Source: Antedon bifida | Lineage: Eukaryota > Echinodermata > Crinoidea > Comatulida > Antedonidae | Assembly (NCBI GenBank): GCA_963402885.1 | Contig: OY727096.1 | Coordinates: 32,159,820 to 32,223,819 of the forward strand | Direction of reading: 5' to 3' | Length of the DNA: 64,000 bases | Shown here: piece after piece, positions 3,733 to 63,670 of the stretch | Position numbering within the stretch: the first letter of the stretch is position 1 | Layout of the letters: each line of letters starts with the position of its first letter | Position numbers and translations under genes: made by a program | Notes under the pieces: generated by a model | Seen by the model: the letters and a program-made list of their open reading frames with translations, nothing else | The model's database searches: none | What the model was told of the DNA's origin: nothing

Positions 3733-3860
3733 TCAATGGACGAAGCTTACAACCAGTATGATGAGATGTAAGTCCTTATGAACAAACCTAGTTAGTACCA
3801 AAGATAGGATATCAGTTATCATTGTTGACCAAAGCAGTTAAAAGGACCAATAAAACCTCA

Positions 3861-4247
3861 AGTTGGTCTTTATTTCAATGGTCAGCTTCAAGTTGGTCTT
3901 TATTTCAATGGTCAGCTTCAAGTTGGTCTTTATTTCAATGGTCAGCTTCAAGTTGGTCTGTATTTCAATGGTCAGCTTCAAGTTGGTCTTTATTTCAATG
4001 GTCAGCTTCAAGTTGGTCTTTATTTCAATGGTCAGCTTCAAGTTGGTCTGTATTTCAATGGTCAGCTTCAAGTTGGTCTGTATTTCAATGGTCAGCTTCA
4101 AGTTGGTCTGTATTTCAATGGTCAGCTTCAAGCTGGTCTGTATTTCAATGGTCAGCTTCAAGCTGGTCTGTATTTCAATGGTCAGCTTCAAGTTGGTCTG
4201 TATTTCAATGGTCAACTTCAAGCTGGTCTGTATTCCAATGGTCAGCA
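3861..4247 (+). repeat. 30-bp minisatellite, about 13 copies
   Basis: The unit reads AGTTGGTCTTTATTTCAATG then GTCAGCTTCA, repeated nearly perfectly about 13 times. Two unit types alternate (GGTCTTTATT and GGTCTGTATT); late copies carry AGCTGG. Because the period is a multiple of three and the unit lacks stops in several frames, long open frames appear on both strands, but they are repeat artefacts. It lies in the probable 3' UTR or 3' flank of the MXRA7-like gene. Confidence 0.95.
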
Positions 4248-5249
4248 TGTATTTTTGTTAACAGTTATACAGTATTAGTTATGTATATTTATAGTGAATG
4301 TTTTATATGTGCAATTTATAGTAAAGTATTGTTTTATATGTGCAACTTCATTCATTTCAAGTTTATACAAGCCGTTTAGTAGAGCTAAGTGTTCACTAAT
4401 CTGTCACAGCCTTTTATTTTCGCTACAAAATGTATAAAAATATCTACTGTAGTACATATGTCTGTGACCAGTTTATTTTCTGGAAATGAAATATACAAAT
4501 AAAGGTATGGTATCACAAGGACGACAGGTGTAATCTGTGTTTGGGTTCATATTGGTCTTTAGCAGTTTTTCAATGATGGATTAGTTGCGTGTATAGTCCT
4601 AAAATAGTAAATGGTTTACATGTGTATTTCAAGTTTGTATTCTGGTGTAAATAGCTGTACATAGATTTACTCATAGTGTTGTTGTTTAATCTTGTATCCT
4701 CCCATGTTATATAATTAACAAGTTTTTGATTTGTGTAACCTCATAATTACAGACAGGTAAATGAGTGTTGGTGTTTCAAGCTGAATTTTAAATTGTTTAT
4801 TGATATTTACACCTTGATAAATTGGTAGTATTCAATGACAATAATACAATTCTCTACTGTATTTGTTTTAATATTTATAATGTATGGATTGTGGTTGAAA
4901 ATATTAATAAACAAAACCAAAAATTTTTTTTTATTTTTAACAGATTTTTTGTTTGTTTTTCACTGTGAAATAATACAGTAATTTTACAAATGCAATAGCC
5001 AATTTAGTAAGATGAGTTTTGTAAATTCATATGGCCATATTTCCTCTACCATAATACTATAATAGCTCTTAGTAAATAAATAATTAATCATTTAAATTAC
5101 AGGCAGTAGACACTTTGTGTTGTAAAAAGTATACAGTAATCTATTATAATACACAACCAAATTAAATACCGCCACCAATCACAAAAAGGAATTTTCAATA
5201 ATAAACAAACGCCGAACGGTGACTAGAAATTAGTGATAAAAAACACGAA

Positions 5250-32623: not shown

Positions 32624-34210
32624 AGTTATCCGCTTGGTATACCAAGCGGATAACTCCTTGTAATTGTATGAGATCAATATTTTTTTTCTGTATTATTCTT
32701 CTTTCCTTCCTTCCTTTTTGTGAGTCGTGTTCCTCTAAAATGTGTAAACATAACATTTCATAACTTTGACAACATATGGGCATTTACGTGAAGTTGTGCA
32801 CCTCCTATTTTTGAATGACGTCATAGTTGCGCAACGTGACTTATGCGCAATTTTATGAATTTCAATGATTGATCATAGATTAAAAACCAAAAGTCATTTA
32901 GTATTGACACTTTGACAAAATTTAAGTCATATCAGGGGCAAACTTTCTACGGATTAAAAATGGCATGTTTGACAAGAAGTTACGCGCGCACGCGCATTTA
33001 AAATTTCAAAATGCGCAAAATTAATTTCTAATCAACTTTTTACGCGTTTCTTGTCATTTTGAGCATGTCAAAAATTCCCACGGGCGCGCAATTTTTTATG
33101 CGCGCGGTGCGCACATAGCGTTAAAAACATATTTTTTTCTCTTGAATTATATTTTTCAAGCCTTTCCCAGTGATTTTGAAAACAATTTAGACCTTTTCCA
33201 GTTTAAATAACGCCATACGAACACGTTGAATTAGACAATTCGTGCGCGTTTTTTATGAAAAAGCTTAAAAAATCGTCAAAATTATGTCTTTTTTTAAACA
33301 GTCATAGTTTCTAAAGTAAACCGTTAACCGTTTATTTTTATTACAAAATCTAGAAGTTGATGAGTTGTAGATATCGGATCATGCATCAATAAGGCTAAAA
33401 AAACATTGTGACGTCATCGTATGGCCACACGAATGTAAAATATAGGATTTTTGTCTCTTTCGTTATTGCTCATCACATTCAATGGAGCGCATCGCGCTTA
33501 TCTGTATTCCTTTTTCTCCTACATTTATATATTGTGTAGGTCAATCAACTTTCTTTAGCATGAGATAAAAATATTTTAATTTTTATGACGTCATCATGCC
33601 TAAAAATTTTAATTACGTGGGTCATTAATTTCATCTTTACAGTAAATTTTAATCTGTAATAGCTCGTAAGAATAAAATGTGATAATCACGATTAAAACGT
33701 TTTCTGGAAGCTATTGGATTGTAGATACGAATTCATGTAAACATTTTGCCAATCGGATGTTGTGACGTCATCATATGGCCAGTTGAATAAAAAAAGTCGT
33801 ATTTTCATATTTTGCGTAATAGTTCATCACATTTAAAAGGGTGCGCATCTATATTTTACGTATTCAAATTTCTTCTACACGTTAATATGTTGTTCCTGAG
33901 ATAATTTCCTTCTGAAATTGCTATCTAAGTGTTTCATTTTGATACCGTCGCCATGTTAAAAATTGGAATAAATGGCGGGTCCCGTAATTTCACCTATTCT
34001 ACACTGTATGTAATATGTATACAGCTTATACTGTTTGCATGTATATACTATATGACACAAAATTCAGCACTAACAGCATGTCATATTCTTCAGTTCTTGT
34101 CATAATGCCATAATCTTTATCTGTGTGCAATATTCCAACGTATGACGTGCACGTGGCGTTTGTCGTGGTGCGGATAACTAACTCGTCAAAGTGACGAGTT
34201 TCATGTCTAG
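32624..34210 (-). mobile_element. Family H copy 5, inverted, full ends
   Basis: On the minus strand it starts CTAGACATGAAACTCGTCAC at 34210 and ends with the perfect 30-bp palindrome at 32625-32654. The outer 600 bp are nearly identical to 21255-21870 of copy 1 and the inner 900 bp to 22850-23770 of copy 2. It may therefore be the simple element from which copies 1 and 2 were split or internally duplicated. It ends about 330 bp before the NACHT-ROC gene start codon. Confidence 0.75.
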
Positions 34211-34543: not shown

Positions 34544-37500
34544 ATGGCAGGTAAGAGAAAAATAAATTTACTTTTTAAAATAAATTACTTTTTCAAGCAA
34601 GTTTTAAAATAAATTTTTTGAGATGAATAGGATTTACTATTCATTATGTACTATTCACACAAAATATCATTCATATTGCACACATTATTGAATTATATTT
34701 CTTAACTGTCATGCTTAATTTATGCCGTTACCCATTGGTCTTCTTGTAAAAATTCAGTTCTTATCATTTGCTATTTATTAAACAGACTCAAAGCCAGTGA
34801 TACCAATGAACAGAGAAGAAGGTGAGTTTACTTGTAATGTTTACCATAATAATGCAATTCAATTTAAATAAGATACAGTAATCAACTGAAAAGAACGTAA
34901 ACATTTAAAAATATAGTCTTGGCAAATCAAATCAACTTGAAAAGGAATATAAAGTGTATATCTATTCATCTTAGAAATAGGAAACTGTTAATATAGTTAA
35001 TACAATTTCCATTTTATAATCCAGTACTTGTTGAATTCACTGATTGTCAAAAATAAACCTGCAACAATAATTATAAAATATAATCATTGAATTTCGAAGC
35101 CGGTCAATAATAAAGCTGCTACTGTACAATAATTGCTTTGTACACAATTATAAGGTTTCTTGGAACTAACGTTACTATGAACTATTTATATCAGTTTTGG
35201 ATGAAAGTGAATGATGTTATTACCCTTCACAATTTGGGATATATCAAACAGGTATGACTGTACAGTGTATCACTTATAATATCAAACACTTTTAATTCAT
35301 ACTGTATATCACATATAATAATATTAATCAGTATGCCCATGATAATTGTCTATAGTAATTAACCTTAAATTTTTACTTCTGAAGTATATGTTTGATAGTA
35401 ATAAAAATCAGACAAACTGAAGAAGTAAACTAACTATAATAAGATGCTAGAATTTATAAACCGATTTTGGATTTAATGATAAATTTACAAGTACAGTAAA
35501 TGGGATCCTTGTCTACAGCATGTCATTCCCACCATAGTAAACATATCCGCTCTTTCAATATTCCTTCAATAGGCTAAGGTTCGTATGCCTATACAGTGCA
35601 CCAAACCGTCATTGATATGGATAAAGAGAGATGTTATAACTAAGATAAATAAAAATATGTCTTAATGTTATATATTTTAGTTTTTAATATAATAATTTCA
35701 CTTTCACACTCATACAAGTTTTAGGTTTATTTTATTTTACTCTAAAGTGGAACTTAATTTCTATTGTCATAAAAATCCTTTGTGATAATTATATTTTTCT
35801 GTTTGCTGCCCTCTGTTGAGCATATTTTAAAAATTAAAGTTTCATATTCTGAAAATTATTACCGTAATCATAAATTATATTTGGTCACACTCACTCTATA
35901 AAGCTTAATTATGATTGCGTGACAAAAACCATTATAACAATAAAGTTAGATAATTTTAATTAATACAAAAATAAAAACATAAAAATAATTAGAGGAATGC
36001 AAAACATTTAACAATTTTATGAAATACCACATAATAAATTAATGTAATAATATACTGTATTAATAAAACTTTATATAGTTTAATCAAGCTAAAAATCTTT
36101 ATATTTAGAAAAGATACAACAATATCTGCTTCAAACACAAAAGGAATTTCGTAGACAGGCCAGGAGATTTACACCAACAATGCGTGGTAGATACAAAGTT
36201 GACATTTCACAGATGTTTACCGATATGGAACTACTGAAAGAAGCTAAAAACAATAAAGGCTGCAAACCAACAACATTAGAAGAAGTGGTAGATGTAATCA
36301 GTTGCATACCTGGATGTAGAGCTTTTATAGATGGTGAAGGAGGAATTGATAAAACTACCTTATTAAGGCATTTATCATACAACTGGGCTACGTCTGGTCA
36401 ATCAAATAAAGTGTTTGAAGGTAAAATTTTATTTCTTTTAAGCGTAAGAGATTTAGAAATAAACGACGACATCATTGATCTGATTGTAAAGCAACTAGAT
36501 ATGGAAGATTTCAATTTAGACACAGATCTTCCAAGCGATCCAAGGTTGATTAAACGATTCATCAAGAAACATGACGATAAGTGGTGTTACTATTAGATGG
36601 GCTAGATGAATTGAAATTTAATAATCCAAGCGTAATCCGTCTTTTCAAAAACAACAACTTAGAGAAGAGTACTGTAATACTTACATCAAATCCAGAAAAC
36701 ATTGAGGCATTCATAAAAGAGTGTGACATACATGTAAGAGTTAAGGGATTTAACAATCAGAGCATAGGAAAGTATATTGACAAACACTTCAAGTATTTTG
36801 GAAAACCAGAATTGGGAGAATCCCTCAGAGTAGAATTAGGTATTGCCACATGGGCCAGGCAAAAAGCATATTCAATGTGCAAAAATCCAATGACTTTGAT
36901 GATGATATGTTTGCTGTGGGAAGACCGTCAAAGTCTTCCTGAAAATAATGCAGAACTTTTTAAAGAACTATTTCGTACCATTTTTAATCAGTTTAACAAA
37001 CACAGACTGTACAACAGAATTAATACATTTGAAGATGCTCCAGCTGAATATATAAACGCTATGATTCTGTTAGGAAAGTGTATGTATAACGGCTTGAAAG
37101 TAAACCAACTTTCAATAAACAAAAGAGATTTGAAAGCTAACACAGATATGGTTGACCTGGCCCTAAAACTGGGGTTTGTATATGAAGAAGCACCATTTTC
37201 AAAATCCAGCTTTAGTCAGATATTCATGCCTTCTCACAAGTTGATAGCAGAGTCATTGGTAGGATTTTACTTGTGCAAATTATGTGAAAGTGAACACACA
37301 GAGGGTGAAAGTACAGGAGATGTAAGGCAATTACTTACTCCTTTGGATGATAATGAATGGAAGATGATAAGAGAAAGTAAGAATCTAAAGGTGGCAAGAG
37401 AGTTTGCAGTTGGTTTTCTTGGTACTACTACAATGTTACAGCATCCAAGTATATTACAAAAGCTCAGCAACTTTGATGGTAAGATATTGGTATTTTTTAA

Positions 37501-40500
37501 AGTATTCTATTTTATATTATTATTATCAACTGTTATTTACAAAATAAAATGTAACGGTTATTTTAATTAAATAACCTATACAAATTGTGTATTATAAAAT
37601 CATTCTAAAAGCAAATTAACAAGGATTACAAAGATTTAAAAAAGTGAGAGGTATTAATTAAGTGTCCAATGTGAATGCATAGTAATAATAAATATATAAT
37701 AACTTTATTATAAACTACTATTAAATCCTTATTTTTTAAGATTCCACTCCAATTGAGATACGGGCTCGAGGACTAGAAGCAATTAGAGCTTACAATGAAG
37801 CCCTGGAAGAAGGGGAAATTGTAGTTAAACAAGGCAGAGTTATTTTTGTAGGTCTTGAGGAAGTAGGAAAAACTTCTACTATCAATTCTTTACTAAGGAA
37901 AGGGTAAGAAAATCTAGAAATAACCTCTTTTTAAACACCAATTGTGGTGTTAATGTTGTTTGAGTTAATTTTTTACCCTCCTAATATCACTATTAAAGTA
38001 TAATGAGATGGTTTTGGGTTGAAGCTCTATCTACAGTCTCGGGAGAAATGTCTGTGTAAATTTTAGCTTCAATAAGCATTTAAACATAATTTCCTCTCAG
38101 TTTTAGCCATTTTTATTATTATGGATTTAAGGGAATAATGACGGAAAAACATACCTTATACACAATATAACAACATATGCCAGTGCCATGGCAACCAATT
38201 GGTTGCATTGGGGCACTAATTTTAATCGTTAAAATATAGGCAGACAATAAGAAAACAAAAAATACTGTATGGCCATTGTTTAGTTTAAAAAAAAATTATT
38301 TAATACAGTAAATATTTATTTTTTCTGTAGTTTTAATCCAAACCATGAAGTAACTAATGGTATAGCAGAAACAAGAACAGTGTACATTCAAAGGGAACAT
38401 GAAACAATTTTGGAAGAACAATCACCAGAGACTTGTAAGTAACATGAGAATTGAAACCAAAAAATTTGCAAAATACAAAATTAGTAACCAAATTAGCACC
38501 AAAGAGAGAGAGAGGCACAGGATTGGTTGCTATAGCTATTCATTCTAGCCAATCCTGCGTTTGAGTACAAAGACCTTGTCCCAGACTTGTTCCATTCTTA
38601 TCCTATTTAAAGACCCCTTCCCTGCAAATTTGGACGTTTTTTGGAAAATAATACATATATATCACTTTAAAAACATTAAACCATGTCATTCCTTGTCTTA
38701 AATGTACGTTTTATGGTAAATTATGATAAAAAGTGAGAAACAATGCACTACCTAAGTAGCTCGCGGCGATCGACCTCTCGTGGACGGTCTTAGGCCTAGC
38801 CTAGCTAGGCTTAGTTTTGTAGGCCTAGCTGGCAAACATCGGTAACGTACGAACATCGTACGCTAGCTATATACCTAGCCTGACGTTGTATAGTTGCTGC
38901 ATTAATTGTCTTTCTATTTTTGCCAGACTCCGTTGATACAAATTGGGAAAAACCCGGTATTTTCGCTGAAAAGTTAGGAGTCTTCCATTTGTTTTGGCCT
39001 CACGATCGATCGAAAAGTGGGTGAATTACAGGTGAAAAACAAAAATATCAATCCGCGCGCAATGCATTTTGGGATTTATAGCGTGCCGCTATAATTATTA
39101 GAATCGACTTATTTTTCACATTTTTAACCGTTTAAAGACGAAAAAAGTTATCGCAAAGGACCATATAGTATTATTTTTACATTAAATATAGTTTGTGATC
39201 TTAAATTAGATCTAAAAAACGTAGGGAAGGGGGCTTTAAAAAAGTAGTTTTTTTTTATTTTTTTTAAATTTTTTTTTTTATTTATTTTTTTTTATTTATT
39301 TTTTTATTTTATGTCTTTAGGCAATGTGGCCAAGGATTACCAATAGTGAATTAATCACTGTCCTATCAGATAGGTGGTAATCCCCCTGATACAGGGGCTA
39401 TTTTGTGAACCAGTTCACCGGGGTAACCCCCTACTCTTTTCAAATAATGAACTGGGTTCTTTAAAGTGCACACAGGTTATAACTGTGTACACTGGACCTA
39501 CGGTTTATAGTCCTTATCCGAGAAGACTTGTTTCACCACCAGAACTAGGAGCGAGTCGGCCTCGAACCCTTGCCGATGTTGTTGGCTCTTTAGGTACGGT
39601 AAACGGCGCCCCTGCCTTAACCGCTCGGCCATTTGACTCGCTAGTAGCATTCTTAAAATAATACTGTGTATATATAGAAGCATTACAATAATATACAAAA
39701 GTAAATTACACTTCTTTTAAGCTTCTGAAATGTATGAGAAAGCAGTTGCCAGAGAAGTGGTGAAACGAGTAAAAGGAAAGCAAAATGCAACAGCATCATC
39801 CACAGAAAATAGTTCTGATGACAAGCATGACGTGGAAGAGAAAAAAATTAAAACAGCATCAACAGAAAATGCTTCTGATAACAAGAATAGAATGAAAGAA
39901 GTTGCAAGAGCTTCAGCAAAACAGGCTTCTGGCAATTATGAAGACAAAATAGAAGAACAGTCAACAGAAAATCCAGCAAAATCAACTGAAACAGAAGAAA
40001 GCAAAATGGATGAGGGTAATAAAAAATGTTAATAGGAATTTCAAGTGCAGGGCGTATTATTATTACATTTCACACCTAATATTTTCACTGTCTGCTCTAC
40101 CAAAACTTAAAGCACTGAATTTTACATGGGCTGACTTGTGACCTGGGCTTTGATATTCGATTTAAGATGGAAGAGGTGGTTAAATTGAATAGAAGTTTAC
40201 TTTTAAAACAGTTGGTGTCTTCGAATGTTTGATCCATAATTCAAAACAAATATACTTTGCCTCTTTTAATTTTTTGTTTTTTAAAACTATGGGCCTCTGT
40301 GTCTTGAAAAAACTAGACCTATTATTTTCAAGGCACCTCTGCTCATGTTTTAACCAGAAACTATATTTGTTATTATTCTCAAAACAAACTCAATGAAAGA
40401 GGAACATCTTAAGAGGCATGTGCCAAATTCTCCTCTTAATAATTGACAAGGTTTTTTTTCAAGATATATGGCAATTGAAAAGTCACTATGACAAGTATTC

Positions 40501-43500
40501 TTGTCAATCAGGAAACGAAAAGTCGAGTAGAATCATTAGAAAAGCAAACTCAGGACCTGAAATCATCAGAAACGTTGATATTCTGTAGATCCTTCGTTAT
40601 TTTCACTTTCATTTCTAAAAATTAAATTGTCTGACAATGTACTTTTCTACAATAATTATTAATTTTAATTACCATTTATAAAATAATTAGAATCCTATAA
40701 AAAATTATCCCAAAAAAAGGCCTATAGAAATTACATACAGAAACATGATATTGATATTTTATTTGTCAACTAATACAATATTTTAACATTTTTAATTTAT
40801 TTAAATTACAAACAACCAAAAATATAGAACAAGAAAAATTTCAGAAAGACGGAAGTGATGACAAGACAAAGACTCCTTCAAAAAGAGAAAAAGAATTAAT
40901 AGAGATTGAGTTTCAGAAACAAGGAAGTAATGACAAGGTGACTAGCGACAAGTTTTTGATGAATATCTGGGATTTCGGAGGACAACAAATTTATCATGTG
41001 GTGCAGCGGGTAAAGTAGTTACATTTCATTACATGAAGCCCTTTTCTCACAGACATGCAAGCAAAATGCAGGGAATATAAATATACATATTGAATATTCC
41101 ACCCGATGCCTGAATGACCCATTCTGACAGAAAGTCAGACCCATTCTGACAGAAAGTCAGACCAGCATGGTTTTAGTTTATATATATTCCCAACACATAT
41201 TTCTGTGAGAAAAGGCCTAACAAGTTAGTTCTGCCTGCACAGGTCTTCCTCCTCAAATATAAGACAAAAGCAAAAGTTAGGAAAGGCCAACACTAATGTC
41301 GTAAAAAAATAAAAAAGTAAAATGTTATTAAGAATTCTAGTACTATGGTAAAATATCTATCGCAAATCTATAATAAATTTATTAGTAGTAGTTGTAGACA
41401 TGACATTTTTAAATCTAAAAATTAAAACACTATGAAACAAAAACCCTATATAATTCTAAATTTAAATGTTATTGATAATCAAGCATTATAATATACTTAC
41501 CATTCATTGAATGTCACTGTTTTATTAATCTCATAGCTCTTCATGGTATCTTTTGCTGTTGTATGCGTAGTATTCAACCTTTGTGATGATCTTGATGCCC
41601 AAGCTAAAGTTTTTGATCCAACAACTGTAAGCTCAGTTTTATTAGTTTTTAAACACTATTTTCAATTCCTTTATTGTGATTGCTTTATAGGGAAAAATGT
41701 ATACCTCTGCTCTGAACACATCTTAAAGTTTTAAGACTTATCAATTAGCTTCTCACATGTTATCCATAGACAATCAAGAAAAAAAGTACATCAATAATGA
41801 ACATTCTTTTCCTGCATTACTCAATAAATGAATAACAATTACGTTTTTGTCAATTGTTGATCAAAGTAATTAAAATTGAGTGTTCTACAAAATTTTTTTT
41901 TTTATCATATATACTTATAAAATTTAGGGTGAAAAGTATGACCACCGAATGACAAATCTGGAGTTCATTCTTTCTTGGATTTGTTCCATATACACAAACA
42001 GTAGACCTGATGCAAAGACAGAAGGTGGTACATCTTGTCCTCCTGTATTACTGATAGGTACACATTTAAATGGTCTTAAAGGAACTGAAGCAGAAAGGAA
42101 TTGTAAGGTAAAATAAAAGTTTAACAATGAAGAAACTATTCAGTAAACTGGAGAACTAATTTGATATTGATATTTTCAAAAACAACTTGAAGAATGTTCA
42201 CTGTAAATGTTTACTAGAACTTTTTACAGCCACGTTTTTATATTTTGAGATAGCAAATGTTAGTGCCATTATTATTTTTATCACTTTTACACCGCTTAGC
42301 TTAGAACAAACCCGTGTCGCATCCGGATATATTTCTCTTTCACACCTGATTCATTAACCCCGGAATGACACGGGTTGCATGCATTTACACTGAAAAATAC
42401 CAACCTGTGTAAATGTTCTAGATTAATAGAAATATCGCCCTTTCACACATGAAGAGACACTCTAGTAACGGTCTGCTCATTATCCTACCATCCTCCTACA
42501 ATTTGTTTTTCATGGCAATACAAAAAAATTGATTATACTCGTGAAGAATAATATTTCTTTAAATAATAATGAATAATAACCATTAATTGAATACTATAGT
42601 CAGCGAGGATAGCAACCAACCAGGAAAACATATACAATGGGACTGTTTTTCTGCGTCCCAGGTATGACTCGGGTTAGACAATTCCAGATCATCTCCGTAT
42701 TTATGCTGGCGGTGTAAAAGGGGTATTTGATTTTTTTTATTATTTTATTTTTTTGGTTGTAAGTAGTACACACATAAGATTGTTCTAATTTTACAAATTT
42801 TGGAAATAAAGTTATATATATGAATGTTAGATAATTAATCTGTTAAAGTTTATCATACACTATGATAACAAAATATTAAAATGTATAATTAACTTTATTA
42901 CAGCTTGCAGAAATAAAGAAGAGAATTTGGAAAGCCCTGAAAGGCAAACCATACAGAGCTATGGTGTGTTCAACTATCTTTGTCATTGAAAACAGTGTAT
43001 CATTTGCAGAGAGTAATGCTTCTGACATTATTAAGGAAATACTGGATTTGTTAAAGAAAATGATCCGCACTTTGCCAATAAAATGGCTAAAATTCCAGAA
43101 GGAAATAAAAAGCTTGAAACAGAAGTCCATATATTTACCAATTTCTCAGGTAGACAAAAATGTTTTTAAAATAATATTTATTCTAATTAGGTTATGTTAA
43201 AAATTGTTTTCCTCCTTAAACATAGACGAATTCATTGTGTTCATGCAATTTGATTGGTTAATTACATATCACGTGTCATTTGGAATTAGCCCTACTCATA
43301 AAAAAGGGATATCTAATGGTGATAATAATAAGACGACTCGTCGGGCTTCGTTGTACGACGCTGTCTGAGTTGGCCTTTACAAAACAAATAATTAAAGTTT
43401 TGTATTCGTTGAATGGAGATAATATTTCAATCGTTGAAAACTGCTCTATTCCTAACGAGGCGAAGCTGACTTTAAAACATAGAAGTCAATTTAGTCATAA

Positions 43501-46500
43501 ATTTGTTTTATAACACGCCTACTTTTATTCAAGCTATATCTATCGTATATCTATCGATAATACTTTTTCGTTAGATAGGGTTAATAATTCCAAATGACAC
43601 GTAATTGACCAACCAAATTGCAAGAATACAATCAGGTCTGTTTTATTTTTTTTTTAATAATCTATAATGCCCTTTGTGTTGTAAGATGCAAGATTCTGAT
43701 GGAATTAAAAATATCAAATAATCTAATTCTAATAATTTATCTTTCTTTTTTAGCTTTTGTTAAAAAATGATTTTTTATTTCTGTTACAATATTAAACTCT
43801 ACAAGCTTTAGAACTATTATAGCTTTAGATTATCATCAGGATTTAATCAATTTACTTCTTTTAGATCTTTGAAATATTAAAAGACTGTAAAGTTACAAAA
43901 GACCACAACGTTCTGCTTGACTATTTGCATGACATCGGCGAGATTCTCTACTACCCAGGTGATGAGGCACTAAGAGATATAATAGTAATAGACTTGATGG
44001 GACTAGTTGACATGTCAACAACAATCATCACTGTTATAGATCCAAAGCTTCAGGTTAGCAAACAAATTAAAAACACATTATTGAAGTAAGATATGAACTC
44101 AACGTAACATGCACATGCTATATATTAAGCTACAGTATGCTGTACTATGAACAGCATAGTCGTAGACATACACTCTAGCCATCTAGCCAGGCATTTCAGT
44201 TAATCTAAAAAGGCAATTTGTACCGTTCAACCGTTTACAGTATTATTGTAAACAGTTTAGTTAATGGTTAGTTTTATTTTACGCAACACCCATCTATTCA
44301 ATTGCTTGAATATGATGACTTTTAAAAAAATTGAAAACAATTTCATATGTCTGAAAGAGAATTGTTAGAGCAATAAATTTAGGAGAAAATTGATATATAA
44401 AATGGATGCAAGAAACGCTCTATTGAATGTGATGAACTGTGACAAAAAGATAAAAATCCAATTTTTAAAATTCGAATGGACATATGTCATAACATCTTGT
44501 CGGTTCAAATTTTACATAAATTCATATCTAAATCATTAGCTTTTATAATAAGTCACCATTGATAATGAAGAGCTATAATCGATTCAAAATAGGCTTATTT
44601 TTACACAAATTTGCATGAAATTACCCATTTTGACGTTATTATTTCACATTTATAATTCATCAAAAATCAAAGGAATTTATTCCAAAAGTATAAAGAACAA
44701 AAACGCTACGTACAAGTTTTGTGCATAAATGCGCCGGCAACATGAACAATTTGAAATACTCAAAATGTCCTAACCTGAAATTGATTTAAGATTAGATTAA
44801 AAAATTTGAATTCATAGTGAATCTTAGAATTTCGGGAAATTGCGAGTAGTTATGCTACTTGACTATATTCTTGACAATTCTTTACATAGAGCAATATCCC
44901 AATTATAAATTAAATATGTAAAAGTGAGGAAATAAATTTGTTGTCGGCAGTATAGACATATATCATTCAAATTTAATTATTAACATATTTCAAATTGTTT
45001 GGGTCCAAAAAATAAGGTCCCTTGTAACACTCTCGCCAAAAGAAGTGAAAAGAAATTTACACCATTATGAGAAATCATGTTCTTTATTAAGAGACAAATA
45101 TAAGTAAATACTATTAATATAAATGTCTTAATGAAAGTTTAGTGGTCAATCTGTAGGTCATGGGTTCTATCAAGAACAACTTTCACAAGTATTTGTTGAT
45201 TTGGTACCAATTATCTTTTATTTACTAAAATTAATTGACAAGATAACATTTTCATTTTTTTTATAAACATAATAGGATAAAGATATGAGAGATGCCTGGG
45301 ATGAACTGGAAAGGGGAATTTTAAAAGGTGAATTGTTGGAACATCTGTTGAAGAATTTCAGTAAATCTGTGACTTTGAAGGACTTCGTCTCTCTTATGCA
45401 AAAGTTTGGTCTAATGTGTGAACGAAAAAGTACAAAGGTATTGATAATATACAAAAGTTGCTCTGTTAAAACTCATCTTTAATTTTTTATTTATTTTCAA
45501 AAAAATCTATATACTTGTCTCAAATTCTTCATTTTTTTTTAACAGAATGATGAACGAATTTTCTATGTTTTTGCATGTTTGAAACCAGAAGCCAAAGAAC
45601 TGCAACAAAGAAAGCATGCAATTTCGCTCTTTCATGATTTTGGTAGCTATCTTCCAGATGATCTATTTCAACGTGTTGCAACAAAATTCATTGAGAAATT
45701 TCAAATGGAAGATTATGAACCTCACCTATCCTATGAGCATGTAGAATTGAATATTGATGCTGATCATCTAGTCATTCTATATGTGACTAACATTAATCAT
45801 TGCCGTATGTTACAGGTAAATATTATAATTGGTACAGACCACTCAACATGGAAAAATTAAATAGAGGGAGGTGTATGAAATTATGAGAGTATACTTGAGT
45901 ACTATGAAATCTAAAAAATTGGGAGAAATAGCATTTTGGCAGGAGATGACTCAAATATCTAGAGACTACCAACATTGTTTGCTTAATATCTGTATATGGT
46001 GGTTCCAAAGCTTACGATTCAAAAACACATCAACATGCCCCTTCAAAATCAGGTTTTAAAGTCTAGTTTTTTAAAATTTTACTAAATGGTCAGTGAAATC
46101 AATGAATCAACTGTAAATAATCAAGATTATGTAAATTTCAATTAGATGACAGTTGTATGGATGATAGGGGTCAAAGAAATTCTTTCAACTTCTATTAAAG
46201 TGTAAAATATCAAGCTACCAGATAAAAACCACAAAATTCAGTGTGTGCCAAACTGTTTACAAGGTTCTGTTTTAATTTCAGACAACAATAGTCAGAACAG
46301 AGAGTTACACTTCAGAACAGTGTACAGAAGACCTCGAGCCACTACCTGAAACCTGTCAAAAGGTAGACTTATAAATATTAAAATGCTAAACAATAGATGA
46401 GAATTATGTCCTTGCAAATTAGGTGAATAACCAAATACAGTACAGTACAGTTTTGTTCCTCCCACTGATGCCAGTCGCATCCAAGAGGCAGTCTTCTCTA

Positions 46501-49308
46501 GCATCCAAATATATGCTGGGTCCGACTGTTGAAGGGCTTCCTTGACTGGGTTAGCTTCTTAGCTTGACTAGGATCGCAGTGAATGAGATTGCTTAATTGC
46601 TGGATAGTATGGTTTTCGGGCTTGTGCAAAGAGCATTCGTTTGATATGAAATTGTTTCATGTTTGAAATAAAAGTAAATTGTACTACATTTGACTACAAA
46701 TAATAATGGGCCAATGTAAAAATAATGAATAGGACATCTGCATATCAAGCAGAAGGTTCCAGGTTCGATCTCGGTTGGGGCGAATTTTTTTCATTCTCAC
46801 AGATTTCCTCATCTTACTTATCATTTCAAATTAATTAATTAAATTTCTGCCTATCACCGGGCGGTTTAGAATTAATTTTCTGTGCCTGATGTGTTTATAT
46901 ATATCTATAAGATCTTGAGAAAGATGAAAACTTTGTTTTGTGATTTATACATTAAATACTATAATTTTGTAGGTCCTTCGTTTCCTTAAAGAAGAATTGA
47001 ATGTATTCAGTCAGAAGGATGCTCGAGGTCTAGAAGTAAGGATGTATATCCCTTGTGTTTGTAGTACAAATGCTCATATGCATCGTATTCGCAAGTTTGA
47101 CAAAGATAAGTTACCTTGTGGAAGCAATCACATGGAAGTGAAACTTTATCGTAAATTGTTTGGCGAAAATGAACTACCAAAAGGTAAACTTGTATCTTTT
47201 TTGTGTGAAAACAATTTTAAAATAAATAAAATGCAGAAATGCGTAGATCTGAGCTGTGTTAAGCTTTGATTAGTTTCTTTTAACTATATCTTATCACCTT
47301 TTGTCAATGATATGTTTATGTTGTTTTTTTGTTGGCAATAAATCAGTTATATATGTTATCAGCCATTAGAATTGATTCTCCAACAAACCTAAAAATATAT
47401 TAAACTTCAAGATCTTGTCTATAGATCTGGTAAGTATAATATTTGATCAGTTGTTATACAATAATTAAATATACCTGCAAAATACTATAATTTTTTACAT
47501 TTTTTTTTTTAACCAGCAGTACATAATAACAATGTGCGATAAATTATTGATGAATTTATATATTTATATCATTATAGCTTGTACTTCACAGTCTCAAGAT
47601 GAAGGTAAGTAGTTTTGTACCATTTATAGTTAATTAGGATAAAACTCACACAAATTAAAATGTAATTGTGGTGTTTTTATGGCAAAATAAAACAACATGT
47701 GTAGTCTATTCTGTCAAATTTAAATACCATATTTATTTGAATAAATGCCCCCCATAGAAGATCATTTTGAATAAACAACCCCATCAATATTTTTAGTTGT
47801 AATACTTCTGTCTTTAATGTCATTTTTAATAATATATAAATCTGTTTGTTTTCCTTGTTCTTTTTTATGTAAATCAAATGTATATTTTATGGCGATCCTG
47901 TATTGGTGTTTTTCTTGATACACTGTTGGATCTTGAATAAATAAATAAAATAAAAAAATAAAAACCGATCTGAACAATAAACACGGTATGTCATATTTCA
48001 TATGTGGCCAAGATATTGATTGATCACTTTATATGTTACACAATATTTTAACAGATGGGTAAAAATACTGTGCTTAATTACCAGTAGACCTATAGTAGTA
48101 TACAATGTGTAATTAACCCAAATACTTTAGTATAAACTATAATGTACTGTAAGTTGTAATTCACAAGTTTATGTGATTTTTATGACAATAATTATCCCGC
48201 AACATAATAAAAATGTGCATATGTTGTAAATCAATTTTGTATCTATTTATTTTTATAGCTAGACCATCACAGTCTCATATCAAAGGTAAGCTGTTTTAGA
48301 AGATTATGGCATTAAGAATCCAAGTATTGTTAATTTATCAGTTGGATAAATTTATAGAGGAAGTCTTCCAAGTTCTTACAGCAATTTTTCTATTTATTAT
48401 AGGTTATGTGGATGATAAAATTATTAGAAAAATATCTGAGGAAATCTATGGCTGGAAACTGTTTGGTGTTCGTTTGGGGATGAGTTGGACTAAAGTGAAA
48501 AAGATATCTGATAGTGAAATGGATCCAAATAAAGCAGCCGAAAAGATGATGATTTATTGGAGGAACAACAATATTAGTGAAGAGAATCAACTTGAAGTAG
48601 TTTGTATTGCTCTTATTCAACATGGCTTCAACAATGTTGCTAATATGTTTCAGAAGGATATCAAAGAAAGACCCCAAATAACCAAACTAGCAGGTATAAA
48701 TAACAAAAATAAAAATCTCACATTTATTGTTTTTTATTGACATTTTTCAAGCACATTATTTTGATTAATATTTATTTCACATGTATTCGATTTGTTGTCT
48801 GCAACAAAAGTAGCTTTGTATATTGTGAGTTTGCATAGTGTTATATAACATTTCAACTTTACTGTTTAAGACAGATCTTTACTGTAATGTGCATGGTGAA
48901 TTAAGTACTAGCCCAAGGAAAAATGTATAGTAAATTTAGCATAGGGGTGTGGGTAAATTTTGTTACAGGTGAATTCTAGTTTTTTACTCATTTTTTATAA
49001 TTTTTAAATGTCTCTTTTAATTTAATTCCACAGGAGAGTTAACAGACTTAGAATTCTTAATGATATCTGAAAAGATGGACGAGCACTGGCAAAATTTTTG
49101 TTGCAGGCTTTCTATTGACCTTGCAGAAATACGCCAGATTGAAGCAAAGTTTTCAAAGGAAATTGTAGAATCAACCATTGAAGCACTGGTACGATGGAGA
49201 GGAAAGCAGAAAAGCAGTGTACACCAGTGGGAAAAAATAAAAGTAATCTTGGAGGATATGGGAAAAATGAATATTGTTGATGAACTAGAAGCTAAAAAAA
49301 CCCCTTGA
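34544..49308 (+). CDS. NACHT - ROC GTPase - COR - Death - Death protein (NACHT frameshifted)
   Basis: Nineteen exons: 34544-34550, 34786-34821, 36109-37478, 37741-37903, 38331-38434, 39722-40015, 40828-41009, 41537-41626, 41928-42107, 42904-43149, 43865-44053, 45276-45437, 45546-45815, 46282-46362, 46973-47183, 47578-47604, 48259-48285, 48403-48693, 49034-49308. Phases agree throughout if one base missing near 36580 is allowed for, giving about 1401 residues. NACHT is at about 75-400 (P-loop GEGGIDKTT, Walker B LLLDGLDEL). ROC is at about 500-810: G1 GLEEVGKTS, G3 DFGGQ, G4-like GTHLN. COR is at about 810-1195 (LHDIGEILYYPGD). Two Death-like folds are at 1214-1310 and 1311-1401. NACHT ATPases and Roco GTPases are regulated oligomerisation switches, and Death domains recruit caspase or kinase partners, so a cytosolic immune or death-signalling role is inferred. 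As read, translation stops at 36594. Confidence 0.85.
36109..37478 (+). pseudogene. NACHT exon with altered P-loop and one-base frameshift
   Basis: This 1370-bp exon encodes the whole NACHT ATPase module. Two lesions are visible. The P-loop reads GEGGIDKTT, with Asp (GAT, 36348-36350) where NACHT and other P-loop proteins have the Gly of GKT; one base change explains it. Near 36580-36581 the frame shifts by one: DDK before the site and VVLLLDGLDEL after it lie in different frames, and the first frame stops at TAG 36594-36596, leaving about 176 residues. Downstream the frame stays open to 37478 with conserved features (RVKGFN, MCKNPMTLMMICLLW, SHKLIAESLVGFYL). The intact 3' frame and the exact phase match to exon 4 suggest a very young lesion, an assembly error or an allele. 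Confidence 0.8.
38607..39239 (-). mobile_element. Family P MITE, copy 3 (633 bp, inverted)
   Basis: It lies in intron 5 of the NACHT-ROC gene, bounded by TTAA (38607-38610 and 39236-39239), with ends AGACCCCTTCCCTGC and GTAGGGAAGGGGGCT. It is a close inverted relative of the copies at 29982 and 30693. It directly abuts the A-rich tail of the neighbouring SINE. Confidence 0.8.
39240..39645 (-). mobile_element. tRNA-derived SINE, apparently full length
   Basis: Read on the minus strand from about 39642 it starts AGCGAGTCAAATGGCCGAGC, GGTTAAGGC (a tRNA Ser/Leu-type A box), then GGGTTCGAGGC (B box) and ACTCGCT, which pairs with the opening AGCGAGT. After this tRNA-like head comes a body (AAGGACTATAAACCGTAGGT, CCAGTGTACACAG) and an A-rich tail of about 75 bp, seen as T-rich DNA at 39240-39320. 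The D- and T-stems are imperfect, so it is a SINE head and not a working tRNA gene. It sits in intron 5 of the NACHT-ROC gene. Confidence 0.75.
41038..41217. mobile_element. 180-bp MITE in NACHT-ROC intron 7
   Basis: The ends GCCCTTTTCTCACAGA and TTCTGTGAGAAAAGGCC are inverted copies. Inside is a 22-bp direct duplication (GACCCATTCTGACAGAAAGT). It is non-coding; the family is not identified. Confidence 0.7.
42284..42720. mobile_element. 437-bp MITE in NACHT-ROC intron 9
   Basis: It has the inverted ends CTTTTACACCGC and GCGGTGTAAAAG, with inner GCTTAGAACAAACCCGTGTC near the left and ATGACTCGGGTTAGACAA near the right. A partial relative (GCTTAGAACAAACCTGTGTC) is at about 52513. No coding potential. 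Confidence 0.65.
43235..43633. mobile_element. 400-bp fold-back element in NACHT-ROC intron 10
   Basis: The left end TTGTGTTCATGCAATTTGAT, then GTGTCATTTGGAATTA, is mirrored on the right by TAATTCCAAATGACAC and CCAACCAAATTGCAAGAATA. The arms are about 50 bp with small indels. The 77-codon open frame inside is not supported as a gene. Confidence 0.65.
44380..44950 (+). mobile_element. Decayed relic of a family H element in NACHT-ROC intron 11
   Basis: Segments such as CGCTCTATTGAATGTGATGA, CATATGTCATAACATC and GAGCTATAATCGATTCAAAA occur in the same order as in family H at 24480-24680, but CpG and CRE-like motifs have decayed and both ends are lost. It is an old insertion compared with the well-preserved copies at 21-34 kb. 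Confidence 0.6.
47578..48285 (+). other. Twin 27-nt microexons of the NACHT-ROC gene
   Basis: Exons 47578-47604 and 48259-48285 are each 27 nt, start and end in phase 1 and encode ACTSQSQDE and ARPSQSHIK. They share the CACAGTCTC core, upstream ACATAATAA-AATGTGC motifs and downstream GTAAG donors, so they arose by duplication of one exon with its flanks. Being multiples of three in the same phase, either or both can be skipped without changing frame. They encode the linker between the COR region and the first Death domain. Confidence 0.8.
48403..49308 (+). other. Tandem Death-like domains (exons 18 and 19)
   Basis: Exon 18 (48403-48693) encodes ISEEIYGWKLFGVRLGMSWT, KVKKISD and a spaced WRNNNIS...ALIQHGFNNVANMF, the W..LG..LGL and final helix pattern of Death domains. 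Exon 19 (49034-49308) encodes HWQNFCCRLSIDLAEIRQIE, ALVRWRGKQKSSVHQWEKIK and ends MNIVDELEAKKTP before TGA, again a Death-fold pattern. Each domain is one exon with phase-1 start, consistent with exon duplication, though the two are now quite different. Death domains pair with others of the same kind in signalling complexes; the partner is not predictable. Confidence 0.75.
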
Positions 49309-57810: not shown

Positions 57811-60800
57811 CTACGAAGACAGTAGAAGAGCAACACCAGCAAGAACCCATTTTGAAGCCTTCTCTTTGGACTTCAAGTTGAACGTCCAAACAAACGTCGG
57901 TCCTCGTATCTTAGTCTTGTACACTGGACACTCATAAATGTTTCGTGTCTCTTGCTTGTCAACAGGGATAGCCCGAATAAAGATTACTGGCATCGCAGGG
58001 GTGAGTTCTTTCAAACGTGCATCGGCTATCATACCTGTTTGAATATCCCATCTTGCACCTTCCATGAACAAGCCATGTACGTAAGCGCCCTCACGAGGTG
58101 CGCTGCTGAAATCTTCCTTATTTTTCTTCGTCACGTCGCACTGTAAACACATCTTGTCTAGAGGCCATTCATTCTTACGTGCCATCGACTGCATAATGGC
58201 CGTCAGGAACGACTGAGGGTTGAAGAAGCCAGCAAGCCAGACTACGTTTGGTAATGCAAAGTCTGATGTCCAGCTTTCAAGCTCTTTGATACGTAGTAGT
58301 AGATCAGTATACCATTGGCCTAGGCCAAATAAGCTAGGGTAGGCACGCTTCATCCATGAGGCTGGTACCTGATCAAGGTACAGGGCATTGCTAAGATCTT
58401 CCATATCTGCAGTGATTGTCAGTTCACCCTATAACACAAATTAAAATAACAATGATGAATTAACAGTGTGACTTTAGCTCCTACTGCATGAAGAAGAAAA
58501 CTACAACATAAATATAAGGCAAAGGTGATTTTTAATAAACCAATACAAAACCAGTTACTGTCCTAAAAATGATGCCGTACCTTTTATAATTATAAAGTTT
58601 TAAAATTGTTGGGTGAATTGCCTAATTTTTCATCTTGGAATTAATAGTAAGATGCTGGTATTGGCAGTAACCATCAAGGAAAACAGCATTACAAGTTTAC
58701 AAGTAATTATAAGACATTGATTATATTTACCTTAAGTCCAAGATCAAGTTCCTTAAGTGAGCGTCTAATCTCATTGGTCAACGTATTCATACGTTCACAT
58801 TCTTGGAAGGCAACCACAACATATGGTGATCTTTCCTCAACCTTTGCTGCCAGTTCCATGATGTTGAACTCTTCTGGTAACTTCTCAATGATCTCATCTA
58901 GCAAAGATTTTATCTGGAGAGAATAAAAGACATTTAAAAGAAAACAAGAAGAAAATGTATGCATGCCATAAATAAGCAAAGCAATTTAACTTGATTACAG
59001 TATTCAGCAGAAAATAAATAAATGACTTTTCTAAGATTGAAAAATGACACTGAAGTGTTTGCTTTCCAATATCAGGTTCCTAGGTTCTAATCCATTTTGT
59101 TACAACACTAGGGTTAATCCTTAGTTTACAAATAATGTTGAATTTAAGTTACAATAAAACAATCACCTTTTCCTCTCTGCTACTAGCGCCCCCACCGCCT
59201 CCGCTACTGTCTCTCGGCTGCATCTCAAGTACTGTCTTGAACAAGTTATCTGATGTAGTTGTAAGGAATCCAATTTCTGCGTTAGGATGAAGTCCGTACA
59301 GATATGGACTTTCCGCTGGTAGCATCTCGTCAATGTAAGTGTGATATGCTTTGTAGTCTGAGTTGCCAGGCACTGGGAAACCAGGGGCGAGGTACAATTC
59401 ACCGTCAAGCTGCAAAGATATCGAATAGATGTAATGATTAGTTGTTATGATTCAGGGATGTAATACAAAACATGAAATACTTTACTATTAAAAATGATAA
59501 CACTTTATCTATATTTGTAAATTTTGACTTGACAAGGCTATCCCATCGATGACAGAAAACATAGATGTTACATGGGAGCATTCCAAAAGGTGGCATGAAA
59601 AGTAATACAGGATATTTTGAAATATTGTCGGGGTTGATACATATTATGTTTGTGCTTACCATATCAACATGCATATACACTTCAAGATAAGTTCTGCAGA
59701 GTCTCCTGTCCCAGTCATCTGTGATGTGACCTCCGTACATGATTTCACCAAAGAGGTATCGTAGATCTTCCCATGGGACCTGTAACCATTGAAACAAGCA
59801 CACATTAAACACCTTGTACACAGCCTCAGGACACACAGAGGTATAGTGTCTTAGGGTATGTTCAGACTCACAGAGTTACGGTGGAGTTATGTAAGCGGCG
59901 TACATATTTTTGTGTCTGAACCATGCCAAGGATTAGCGTTAGGGAGCTGTTACTCCGCGCCAGTGGCGTTAATAATTCTAGCGTACCCTAGTATACGACA
60001 GCGAAATAGCTATGTCAAATGTATTTACAGGTTCAGATTTTAAAGAACAGTAAAGTTGGCGTCAGTGATATGATATTTTCATAAGTTAAATCAATTAATC
60101 AGATAAAATTGTCCGTGTAACAATTACTTTTTAAATTACTTTGAATTAAAATGCAATTCTACAAGTAGTAAGAACAAATCAGTATATTTGAAGGTAAACA
60201 TTATATAAATAAAAAAAACAAAAAACCATGAAAAAACAATGTAAATGATGCATTGTCATGAATGTATACATAATATAGTTCTATCTGCTTTGACCTGATA
60301 AGAGTGTTAAACGCAAGGCATTGGAATGTTGGTCGTTGTGTCTGAACACCTTGGCTTTTAACGCCACAGATTACCGTACGCCTTGCGTAGATAACTCCAC
60401 CGTAACTCCATGAGTCTGAACATACCCTTAGTAATAAAATAATTACTCTTTATCACTGAATAATAACTTTTAAAAAGGATAAATATTTTTCCATTAAATC
60501 ATGAATTATTATTAATACAGCAATTAAAAATCAGTTAATTTAGACAGAAATATATTTACAAAAGGGTTCAACAGAAGATTTTTACAAACCTTAGCATTTG
60601 CTTCAAGATAATTATAGAGCACATTGACAGAGATTGTCAAGTCTCCAGTATTGTATGGATAGACTCTATTCCAGCCCTGTGGTCCAAACTTACGACGCTC
60701 TGCGACGACTGCGTGGAAGTAACAGAGGGCAAAGAGAATGCTCTTGAACTCTGCCTCACGGGAGCACATCTCAAGTGTATCCTGCAATTAAAAATTTTAT

Positions 60801-63670
60801 GATAAAAATGTGGCTTAAACCATTATTCCTAAAGGGGTGTACTAATAGAACTGTATGCCAGTTTGTCAGTTTATTGTGTTTCATTTTCTATTTTGTTTCA
60901 TAGATAATATTTTTACATATATCACAAAAATAAAGTTGCTTGTACAGTACAAAAGATTCTGGTTTGGACAATTCTATTATTCCCAAGGTTTAATTACCCA
61001 AACATGATGATGTTGAGACATGTGAAAAAAAAAATTACCTGATTGAAGTTGTCAAGAGCCTTATGTAGATTTGCGTGCATGCCAGTCGGCGGTTCGTTTG
61101 TGATCTTGATAGAAGACTCCAATATGCCTTGAGGTATGATGTGCGACTCTGGTGTGCCTGAGGGCTCAGCACTCATGAACACTCTGTAATCTTTATGACT
61201 ACCATAGCTGTATGCTTCCAGCTTCTTTTCTAATGTCGATAGCCATTTGGCAACCAAATGGATGTTCTGTGGATAACAGCAGTGATGTACAAATGTGTCA
61301 TAAAATAAAGTAAAGTATGTGACATCCTGATTGTAACCTAGCCAAAAATTCAGATATTGTAAAAAAATATATAAATGCATTGAAACAAATGTAAAGATAC
61401 CTTACCTGTAAAATGACCCAATGGCCTTCTTTAGCTGCCAAATCCATGCACTGCTCGGCCACGATTTCCTGGCCTTGACCCAAAGACACATTGTGAAAGT
61501 TACCCTGGTCAAATGTCCAGCCAATCTTCTTACCCAACGCTTCCACGTCCTTCAACGGGTCAACACCAGGGGATAGAATAAAGAAGACGGGTGTTTCTGG
61601 ACCAGTTTCTTCAAATGATTTGGAAAACTCAACAGCACGATTTTCTGTGTACTGAGCACCAAGTTTCTCTTCAATGAAGTTACTAAAATGAATCAAATAT
61701 CAACTTATTACTTTAAAAAATTTAAATTTATAAAACAATGTAAATTTATAATTGAATTAAGATATGATATATTTCATTTGAGCTGATAAAACTTAACACC
61801 ATACCTGACAGCGTATGTCATCCTGTCTGGTCGGAGCGCCCTCATCATACATAGCTTCTGTAATGATGACTTGTTTTTCCATTCCTGTGGGAACTTCTCC
61901 TTCTCTGGACATTCACTCTCTACAAATTTCTTCCAACGTTTTGCAGAACCTTCAATGTCACGATCCAAGTTTCGGAATTCTTCCATACCAGACAGAGACT
62001 GAAGAGAATTAGGATTAAAGTCAAATCAGGCAACTAAATATGTACAATACGATACTACTTATTCATTTTAACAATGAGGTGCAAATGAAATTTGGTTGGT
62101 TGGTTTACACTTTGATTTACATACAATTATACAATAAATACAAAAAAGAGAGAGAGAAAAAAAATAGATCTTAACTTGCTATTAAATATGTGAATAAAAT
62201 TACAAAGAAATTTCCTAAAATTCATCAACACTACTGTATCACCATAAACTTAAAATGATTAGTATTAGCAAAAAATAAATAGAGAATATAGTGGCATACC
62301 TTGATGGCACCCCAAGAGTTGTTTGAAAGGAAGTCAACTGGACTGGTGACATTCATTTGTGATGGGAATCTTAGCAGGAACTCCAGCTCCAATGGGTTGA
62401 TCTCTTTCTTCATCAATAACACCTATATTAATTAATAATATTATAGTTACAAAGACATTATTACTTTTAATATGAAAAAGTTGAACAAGTGATGGCTACA
62501 AGGAACATTAGAAATGTGGATTTTTGTCAGAATTTTTTCCGATACAGAACATAATAACACAAGAACTGGCACAAGAGATAGTTTTATTAGCCCACAGCTG
62601 TACTTTCATTTAAAAAACACCTTATTGAGATCAACTATTTGTATTTTTCTTTGAAATAGTAGGGTTTGGTACCATGAGATTAAACATAAATGGGAAATTG
62701 GATGAAAACAAAACATAATCTACACACCTGGAAGGCGACTTGAGCAGTGAAAATAAGTTTGTCTTGTTCAAAGAGACCACGAGATGTGTACATGAACACA
62801 GAGTATGTGATGAAGTCAATCAGGTTCCCAACACGTTGCTTTACTTCCTCAGCAGGCTCAGCTTTGCTGATGGCATGTGCGAACACAACACTGAAAGCCT
62901 GCAAAAAAGACAATTAAATAATGAGATCAGGAGCCTTAGATAGTAATGCAGCATTGTGGGAACACAACAATAAAAGCCTGAAAGAAAGAACACATTAAAG
63001 AATTAGACCTTTACTTAAAGCATGCATAGAGATATTAGTTCACTATAATATCAGTGTCAGGAGTCTTGGATAGTAGTGCTGCTTTGATAATAAGGCAGAT
63101 TCTGGTATGATTTGAACTCATGAACCTGGCATTGTAAGCAATGAGCTAAATAATCACAAACACAATAATCCTCAAAATGCTACGTTTCAATACACTTTTT
63201 TAAACATTGCAACTGTATTATAAAGTAAAATATAAATCTTATCAAATTATGAGGTTTACAGATTCAATTTTTTCTATATGACACTACATCCTTGTTTGAG
63301 ATACTTGCTTTGTGTAAATAATTTCCAACTTATATAGAACAAAACAACTATAACATTCTTTTACCTTTAGAGAGAATTGATACATTGGGTTGATCCTGTT
63401 AAGATCGTTGAGAATGAAGTAGAGAAGAGATGCTCTTGCAGCAGCAGGTCTGTAGTGTTCTCTTGCTTCGTTGATCTGCACTTCTGTTGTTTTAGCTTCC
63501 GTCACCTTCACCTCGATCTCCGCTGCAGTTCGCTTTGTTGTTTCCAGATTTTCCACTAGAGCTGTATCTCCAAGGAAGTTGCCTTCTGCAGATGACAGTC
63601 GGGAGAGGAGATTGTCTTCAAGCTCTTTGAGGACAATCTTGAAGTCGTTCTGTTGTTTCGTCAAATCCAA
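57811..63670 (-). CDS. DNAH9/11/17-like: Axonemal outer-arm dynein heavy chain, beta type, C-terminal part (partial)
   Basis: Ten minus-strand exons, in transcript order: 63670-63365, 62898-62728, 62422-62300, 61998-61805, 61682-61406, 61266-61039, 60781-60590, 59779-59660, 59409-59167, 58913-58731 and, last, 58428-57811 (eleven segments with the terminal one). They join in frame to 884 residues and TAG. The order is end of AAA5 ([20 protein letters not shown]), AAA6 ([36 protein letters not shown]) and the C-terminal domain ([46 protein letters not shown], ending [12 protein letters not shown]). Dynein heavy chains are the ATP-driven motors of cilia and flagella. The sequence fits the outer-arm beta class (DNAH9, DNAH11, DNAH17) over inner-arm or cytoplasmic chains; which one I cannot say. 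Linker, AAA1-4 and stalk lie beyond the right edge. No lesions are seen. A Gly5 run before the exon 59167 boundary is a variable loop. Confidence 0.97.
59851..60430. mobile_element. 580-bp MITE with TTA flanks (PIF/Harbinger-like) in a dynein intron
   Basis: Flanked by TTA on both sides, with ends GGGTATGTTCAGACTCA and TGAGTCTGAACATACCC, followed inward by GAGTTACGGTGGAGTTA and its complement. A three-base TTA/TAA target duplication is typical of PIF/Harbinger elements. The interior is non-coding, although one end gives a 61-codon open frame. Confidence 0.75.
62880..63085. repeat. Small imperfect duplications beside a dynein splice acceptor
   Basis: The acceptor-side motif CACAACACTGAAAGCCTG (about 62884-62901) is echoed by CACAACAATAAAAGCCTG at about 62963-62980. 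The segment CAGGAGCCTTAGATAGTAAT near 62930 is echoed by CAGGAGTCTTGGATAGTAGT near 63058. The copies lie within the upstream intron and are not coding. Confidence 0.55.

Follow-up and report, generated by a model that had tools for sequence, protein, structure and literature searches.

The window analyzed here is a 64,000 nt stretch of Antedon bifida DNA without any N, lying on contig C9 of the 315.6 Mb in 27 contigs that we searched (C7, C8 and similar names are contig labels). All of the named domains are on the plus strand between 34.5 and 49.3 kb of the window, in the order NACHT (36109–37423), ROC and COR (37741–47183), and two Death domains (48403–49308). The features of the locus are as follows.

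34544–34550, plus strand: proposed exon 1 (Met-Ala); donor GTAAGA, phase-1 exit; unsupported
34786–34821, plus strand: proposed exon 2; GT-AG borders, phase 1; unsupported
36109–37478, plus strand: NLR-derived NACHT exon with frame break (open frames, Pfam, NLR DNA similarity)
37424–37505, plus strand: junction stretch, after NLR homology ends and before Roco-intron homology starts; contains the phase-1 donor at 37479
37506–37740, plus strand: Roco-type intron upstream of ROC; 88–89% identical to two C10 paralogs
37741–37903, plus strand: exon 4, ROC P-loop (GLEEVGKTST) (open frame, splice borders, paralogs)
38331–38434, plus strand: exon 5, ROC (splice borders, paralogs)
39722–40015, plus strand: exon 6, charged insert within ROC (splice borders, paralogs)
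40828–41009, plus strand: exon 7, ROC WDFGGQ motif (Pfam, splice borders, paralogs)
41537–41626, plus strand: exon 8, ROC (splice borders, paralogs)
41928–42107, plus strand: exon 9, ROC, GTHLN motif (splice borders, paralogs)
42904–43149, plus strand: exon 10, ROC-COR junction (splice borders, paralogs)
43865–44053, plus strand: exon 11, COR-A (Pfam, splice borders, paralogs)
45276–45437, plus strand: exon 12, COR (splice borders, paralogs)
45546–45815, plus strand: exon 13, COR (splice borders, paralogs)
46282–46362, plus strand: conserved exon in place of exon 14 (present in 7 of 8 paralogous loci)
46973–47183, plus strand: exon C-terminal of COR (present in 6 of 8 paralogous loci)
47578–47604, plus strand: putative 27-base linker exon (from splice sites)
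48259–48285, plus strand: putative 27-base linker exon (from splice sites)
48403–48693, plus strand: Death domain 1 (Pfam 23.2 bits; relatives downstream of ROC elsewhere)
49034–49308, plus strand: Death domain 2 and stop (Pfam 35.0 bits)

Other parts of the window carry an axonemal dynein heavy chain gene on the minus strand (57814–63670), whose fragment at 57814–58428 has DNAH17 and DNAH9 chains as its best PDB matches, and plus-strand frames at 11462–12989 that may resemble FAM227 proteins. By eye, there is a tandem repeat of about 30 bases at 3792–4376 that is open in several frames. A repeat-like segment at 34121–34210 appears akin, again by eye, to the DNA that immediately precedes ROC in two C10 paralogs, and is perhaps a small mobile element.

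Pfam finds each domain in the order originally predicted, NACHT – ROC – COR – Death – Death, and the NACHT halves precede Roc in this HMM search, a check that the original prediction had itself proposed; with both NACHT and Roc scored, two types of nucleotide switch are represented as claimed. The NACHT scores in two halves, at 26.8 bits (36093–36593) and 23.4 bits (36581–37567; cut-off 26.7), and other single pieces yield Roc (20.9 bits, 40755–41015), COR-A (27.8 bits, 43865–44086) and Death (23.2 bits at 48300–48737 and 35.0 bits at 49021–49305). Two of the ten pieces scanned have no family, and the P-loop and ROC-COR junction pieces match weakly. With exons 4–13 joined, Roc scores 47.8 bits (cut-off 27) and is followed by COR-A at 55.3 bits (residues 396–540), and the last five exons joined give Death at 52.3 bits across two stretches. 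There is no Pfam kinase at E 0.1 in exons 4–13, the last five exons or the NACHT exon, and no Pfam TIR in exons 4–13 or the last five exons.

Exons 4–13 join in a single frame of 627 residues with GT-AG borders, and GT-AG also bounds the exons of the whole chain, the exceptions being the start, the stop and the arbitrarily set end of exon 14. The proposed exon 14 (45865 onward) has no in-place match in eight paralogous Roco loci that we fetched (one stray match, E 0.87) and no phase-0 donor was found for it by eye; 46282–46362 is the conserved exon instead. Exons 4–13 together with 46282–46362 and 46973–47183 are complete in five of the eight loci (C10c, C12a, C16, C7 and C8). Near the edges of their fetched stretches, C10a is without the 46973–47183 exon and C12b is without exon 13 onward; C10b has no exon 4 and a stop inside exon 7. 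Exon 5 is weakly matched (E about 0.03–0.04) in C10a, C10c, C12b and C16. Where the ROC P-loop of the window has GLEEVGKT, six of seven paralogs have GLEGVGKT and the seventh has GLERVGKT, and exon 7 has FGGQQ in the window and FGGQP in seven of the eight loci, with a stop there in the eighth. Roco dN/dS between the window and five paralogs is 0.45–0.49 with zero stops (eight exons, 502 codons) and spans 0.38–0.64 when more exons are included; among the paralogs it is 0.38–0.51, one near-identical pair aside (eight exons). The proposed exons 1 and 2 (7 and 36 bases) have no convincing relative among the fetched loci.

At least 149 places in the genome, the window included, are related to the ROC of exons 4 and 5 (150 of 257 candidates were scored, giving 150 matches from which the window's exon 5 was dropped), and a search with exons 4–13 returned at least 78 matches (70 of 1456 candidates scored). 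Death domain 1 has 43 matches (68 of 68 candidates scored). One of these ROCs lies no more than 40 kb upstream of 41 of the matches, and the 13 kb downstream of each of the 43 contains no ROC. When the 54 closest of the 149 listed ROC places are followed downstream, 31 reach a Death exon ahead of the next ROC and at least 10 reach two, a lower bound because the window's second Death is absent from that list. ROC-COR-Death, often with two Deaths, is therefore a normal form of the family, and the paired Death domains, part of the combination described previously as unusual, are ordinary within it. The fetched stretches end soon after COR, and within them Death 1 is matched in C16 alone (49% identity) and Death 2 in none (best E 0.66). 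The firm part of the locus is a Roco gene, ROC-COR-Death-Death, that is a member of a large lineage-specific family.

Elsewhere in the genome, C15 has single-frame arrays at 13.46–13.55 Mb and 17.2–17.33 Mb, many of the frames being 950–1030 codons long, in which two Roc-profile pieces lie about 1.2 kb apart in the same frame. Caspase-like frames are present upstream of a Roco copy at C10:23.19–23.21 Mb (L037/L038), one of them with a Peptidase_C14 match of 106.7 bits, and reverse-transcriptase-like frames were seen by eye upstream of two other Roco paralogs (L027/L028 and L033/L034).

The NACHT exon is of NLR origin. Its second half matches at least 131 distinct places, many of them in C7 arrays (147 matches, 131 of 230 candidates scored; the count covers window-like NACHTs, as the query was the window's own second half, and includes the window), and it is 69–72% identical to the best five C7 copies. 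Five NLR relatives that we fetched have open frames of 674–870 codons, and one of these (L011) has LRRs together with a Pfam NACHT of 77 bits. DNA similarity to the five relatives begins at 36096–36107 and ends at 37423, and the window copy is therefore cut before the LRRs; the LRR part of L010/L011 has no better match in the window than E 3.2, in agreement with the earlier remark that recognizable leucine-rich repeats are lacking. None of four DED-like modules compared with the window identifies an N-terminal death-fold module there (best E 0.33).

There are two departures from the relatives within this exon. First, the frame of the first half ends at a stop at 36594 and the second half is open from 36581 in another frame, a one-base frame break located before Walker B; the frames of the relatives continue through this site. 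Exon 3 consequently hands the wrong phase to exon 4, and exons 4 onward are out of frame as assembled. The continuous, phase-consistent exon chain of the original prediction is thus interrupted inside the NACHT exon: its phase consistency stands for exons 4–13 and fails in exon 3, where the two halves are in different frames. Second, where all six NLR comparators (L010–L014 and one C7 copy) have GIGKTT as Walker A, the window has GIDKTT, such that the window copy has neither a single open NACHT frame nor a canonical Walker A. The sequence as assembled does not encode the proposed two-switch protein, and the suggestion that one polypeptide couples ATP-driven assembly to GTP-gated release is not supported by it, with the NACHT frame broken and Walker A altered.

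The damage is probably not old. There is no stop within either half of the exon, and if a relative's exon were decaying neutrally the probability of zero stops would be 0.30 at 2% divergence, 0.06 at 5% and 0.007 at 10%. Three-point estimates put NACHT dN/dS at 0.33–0.39 on the window branch, where dS is 0.23–0.30, and at 0.15–0.20 on the sister branches. Together the lack of stops and the branch dN/dS indicate that the exon was kept until recently with some relaxation, and they rule out an old pseudogene, although the constraint may stem from an earlier life as a full NLR.

Between the last NLR similarity (37423) and the first Roco-intron similarity (37506) there is a gap of 83 bases, within which is a GTAAGA donor in phase 1 at 37479. 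A genome search with 37424–37510 returns the self-match alone, and because the junction is unique there is no second copy to confirm a NACHT-ROC splice. The phase match is weak evidence, since four of the eight GTs in the open stretch are already in phase 1. As read from the sequence, NACHT would presumably be spliced to ROC at this donor.

NLR and Roco genes have in common a DED-like cassette of roughly 180 residues (L042, L045, L046 and L043/L044). Pfam matches DED in the first half alone of a module from a Roco locus (E 2.9e-8, 34.3 bits; cut-off 35.9) and of one from an NLR locus (E 7.6e-4), and does not match a module of the C12a type; our reading is that the module is a tandem. In at least 50 of the 131 listed NACHT places, a same-strand DED-like module is listed no more than 10 kb upstream (150 matches, scored from 609 candidates), and another NLR relative has a DED-like exon upstream of its NACHT. 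Within 15 kb of the 149 listed ROC places, DED-like modules are downstream in at least 55, upstream in at least 18 and on both sides in at least 13, and among the matches listed none is on the opposite strand on either side (counts from all 150 matches of one DED-like set and 45 of 150 of another). The upstream matches at 12–14 kb may belong to the preceding gene. We considered that the cassette might always be N-terminal, which these downstream and upstream counts rule out.

The modules of both families appear to meet in phase 1. The acceptor side of the NACHT exon is in phase 1 both for the window and for two NLR loci, a DED-like exon exits in phase 1 in one NLR locus, DED-like exons of two C12 Roco loci exit in phase 1 toward a ROC exon 4 that is entered in phase 1, and the NACHT-ROC border in the window is in the same phase, all as read from the sequence with putative splices. 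Such phase-1 introns, through which NLRs and Rocos alike appear to link their modules, would make capture of a NACHT exon easy.

Our leading explanation, which we advance tentatively, is that a NACHT exon was captured upstream of ROC by way of these phase-1 modules and is now broken. A NACHT exon of NLR origin that ends short of the LRRs would have been placed directly upstream of ROC in a Roco gene, and capture would have been eased by a phase-1 DED-like cassette that runs on into NACHT in NLRs and, in some Rocos, into ROC. The exon was probably included in the transcript for some time, with the copy sequenced here broken in both frame and Walker A. Counted in favor of capture are the homology borders at 37423 and 37506 with the phase-1 GTAAGA donor between them, as well as the branch dN/dS and the stop-free halves (0.06 under neutrality at 5% divergence). 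Counted against it are the number of NACHT-ROC pairs within 10 kb, which does not exceed chance, and C8, the closest paralog by exon 13 among the matches listed, which has neither a NACHT nor a listed Death exon; in C8 a DED-like module follows ROC at 12.0 kb downstream.

An explanation that we regard as unlikely, although it deserves serious weight, is that the NACHT is a remnant of an independent, truncated NLR gene that happens to lie upstream of an ordinary Roco gene with its own 5′ exon, for which no candidate was found. Both families are very large, and random placement predicts 0.65 NACHT-ROC pairs within 10 kb, an estimate in which the length of C15 is approximated and the NACHT and ROC counts are minima. 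The window is the single listed case on the same strand, the other 148 of the 149 listed ROC places having no listed NACHT within 10 kb upstream, and this rarity also weighs against the proposed coupling of two switches in a single protein. In the eight fetched Roco loci nothing NACHT-like is better than E 0.36 in the 7.3 to 13.1 kb upstream of ROC (of exon 5 in C10b). Two further listed NACHTs, both NACHT-LRR copies that we considered as candidate fusions, are upstream of ROC in two C7 Roco places, at 16.5 and 26.5 kb. The nearer one was rejected, as its frames stop about 14.6 kb before ROC. A chance neighbor also agrees with the frame break and the Walker A change, which suit a dying copy, and with the 131 of 149 ROC places for which the 15 kb upstream contain no DED-like module among the matches listed. 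Against it, the expectation falls to about 0.08 when reduced in proportion to the true spacing of 1.16 kb (0.65 × 1159/10000), there is a usable phase-1 donor at the border, and constraint on the stop-free NACHT halves extends over most of the branch. The closeness of NACHT to ROC is suggestive of more than chance, short of proof.

Less probable again is an intact fusion, in which the apparent frame break reflects a consensus error or a minority allele, and the full NACHT-ROC-COR-Death-Death protein is made, its NACHT perhaps a poor binder of ATP. In its favor, the break is a lone one-base event in about 430 codons with both halves stop-free, phase 1 fits both sides of the NACHT exon, and dN/dS is well below 1. 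However, the assembly as given does not encode a NACHT-ROC protein, one sequencing error does not explain the altered Walker A as well, and there is no second listed case within 10 kb among the 149 ROC places. We place the combined proposition, that this protein is made here and that its LRR-less NACHT was captured through a trade of phase-1 cassettes between NLR and Roco genes, a shade lower still. Very improbable is a switchable cassette in which exon 1 splices either to NACHT or directly to ROC, the broken NACHT being skipped to make a short Roco: exons 1, 2 and 4, each in its own open frame, all meet in phase 1, and skipping of exon 3 would therefore preserve the frame, but the first two exons are tiny and without convincing relatives in the fetched loci.

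If a captured and now broken NACHT exon is the correct reading, the behavior of the gene can be sketched from what is typical of the families concerned. As a dimer, the GTP switch of ROC-COR would expose or cluster the two Death domains, which would then recruit death-fold adaptors and caspases, and the NACHT, where included, might serve as an extra clustering module without ligand-sensing LRRs. Should the fusion be or have been expressed, it would place two nucleotide switches from separate immune families in one chain, and would represent an architecture observed shortly after it arose and close to being lost. The genome context carries more weight than the single locus: very large NLR-type and Roco-type families appear to share a death-fold cassette and a splice phase, so that new receptor-effector combinations would be possible by single recombinations. 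This provides a testable model for how invertebrate immune repertoires gain new architectures.

We found no NACHT-ROC-COR-Death protein in the portions of the literature covered (including parts of PMC8195603, PMC7159879 and PMC2246300), a body of text from which most subscription journals and all figures fall outside, and the comparisons that follow draw on portions of the papers cited. The window gene is similar to the DAPK1-group Roco proteins (PMC6337361) in having ROC-COR followed by a C-terminal Death domain with no LRR found, but differs in having no kinase in the exons scanned, two Death domains and a large family. DED-NACHT NLR proteins are reported in amphioxus, sea urchin and Nematostella (PMC2575513), and the window NACHT is of the NLR type, although this copy has neither LRRs nor a DED match, its frame is broken and its Walker A is altered. 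Immune-type domains on a ROC-COR core are also seen in other invertebrates: sea anemone NG1 has LRR, Roc/Ras, COR and TIR, NG3 has kinase, Death and TIR, with Roc/COR by SMART (PMC5094078), and Aplysia TIR proteins carry ROC and COR (PMC9334734). The portions covered of these reports name no NACHT, and the window exons scanned have no TIR. A figure legend for Dysidea avara NLRs includes COR among the domains (PMC12909245) and COR may therefore accompany NACHT-LRR in a sponge, although the text portion gives neither the domain order nor a Death pair. Finally, LRR-ROC-COR genes of brown algae, which are proposed immune receptors, are described as products of exon shuffling (PMC11378527). The likeness is in Roco sets built from shuffled, phase-matched exons, and the difference is in the phase used, the shuffled LRR exon of the algae being in phase 2 whereas the DED-like, NACHT and ROC exons here meet in phase 1.
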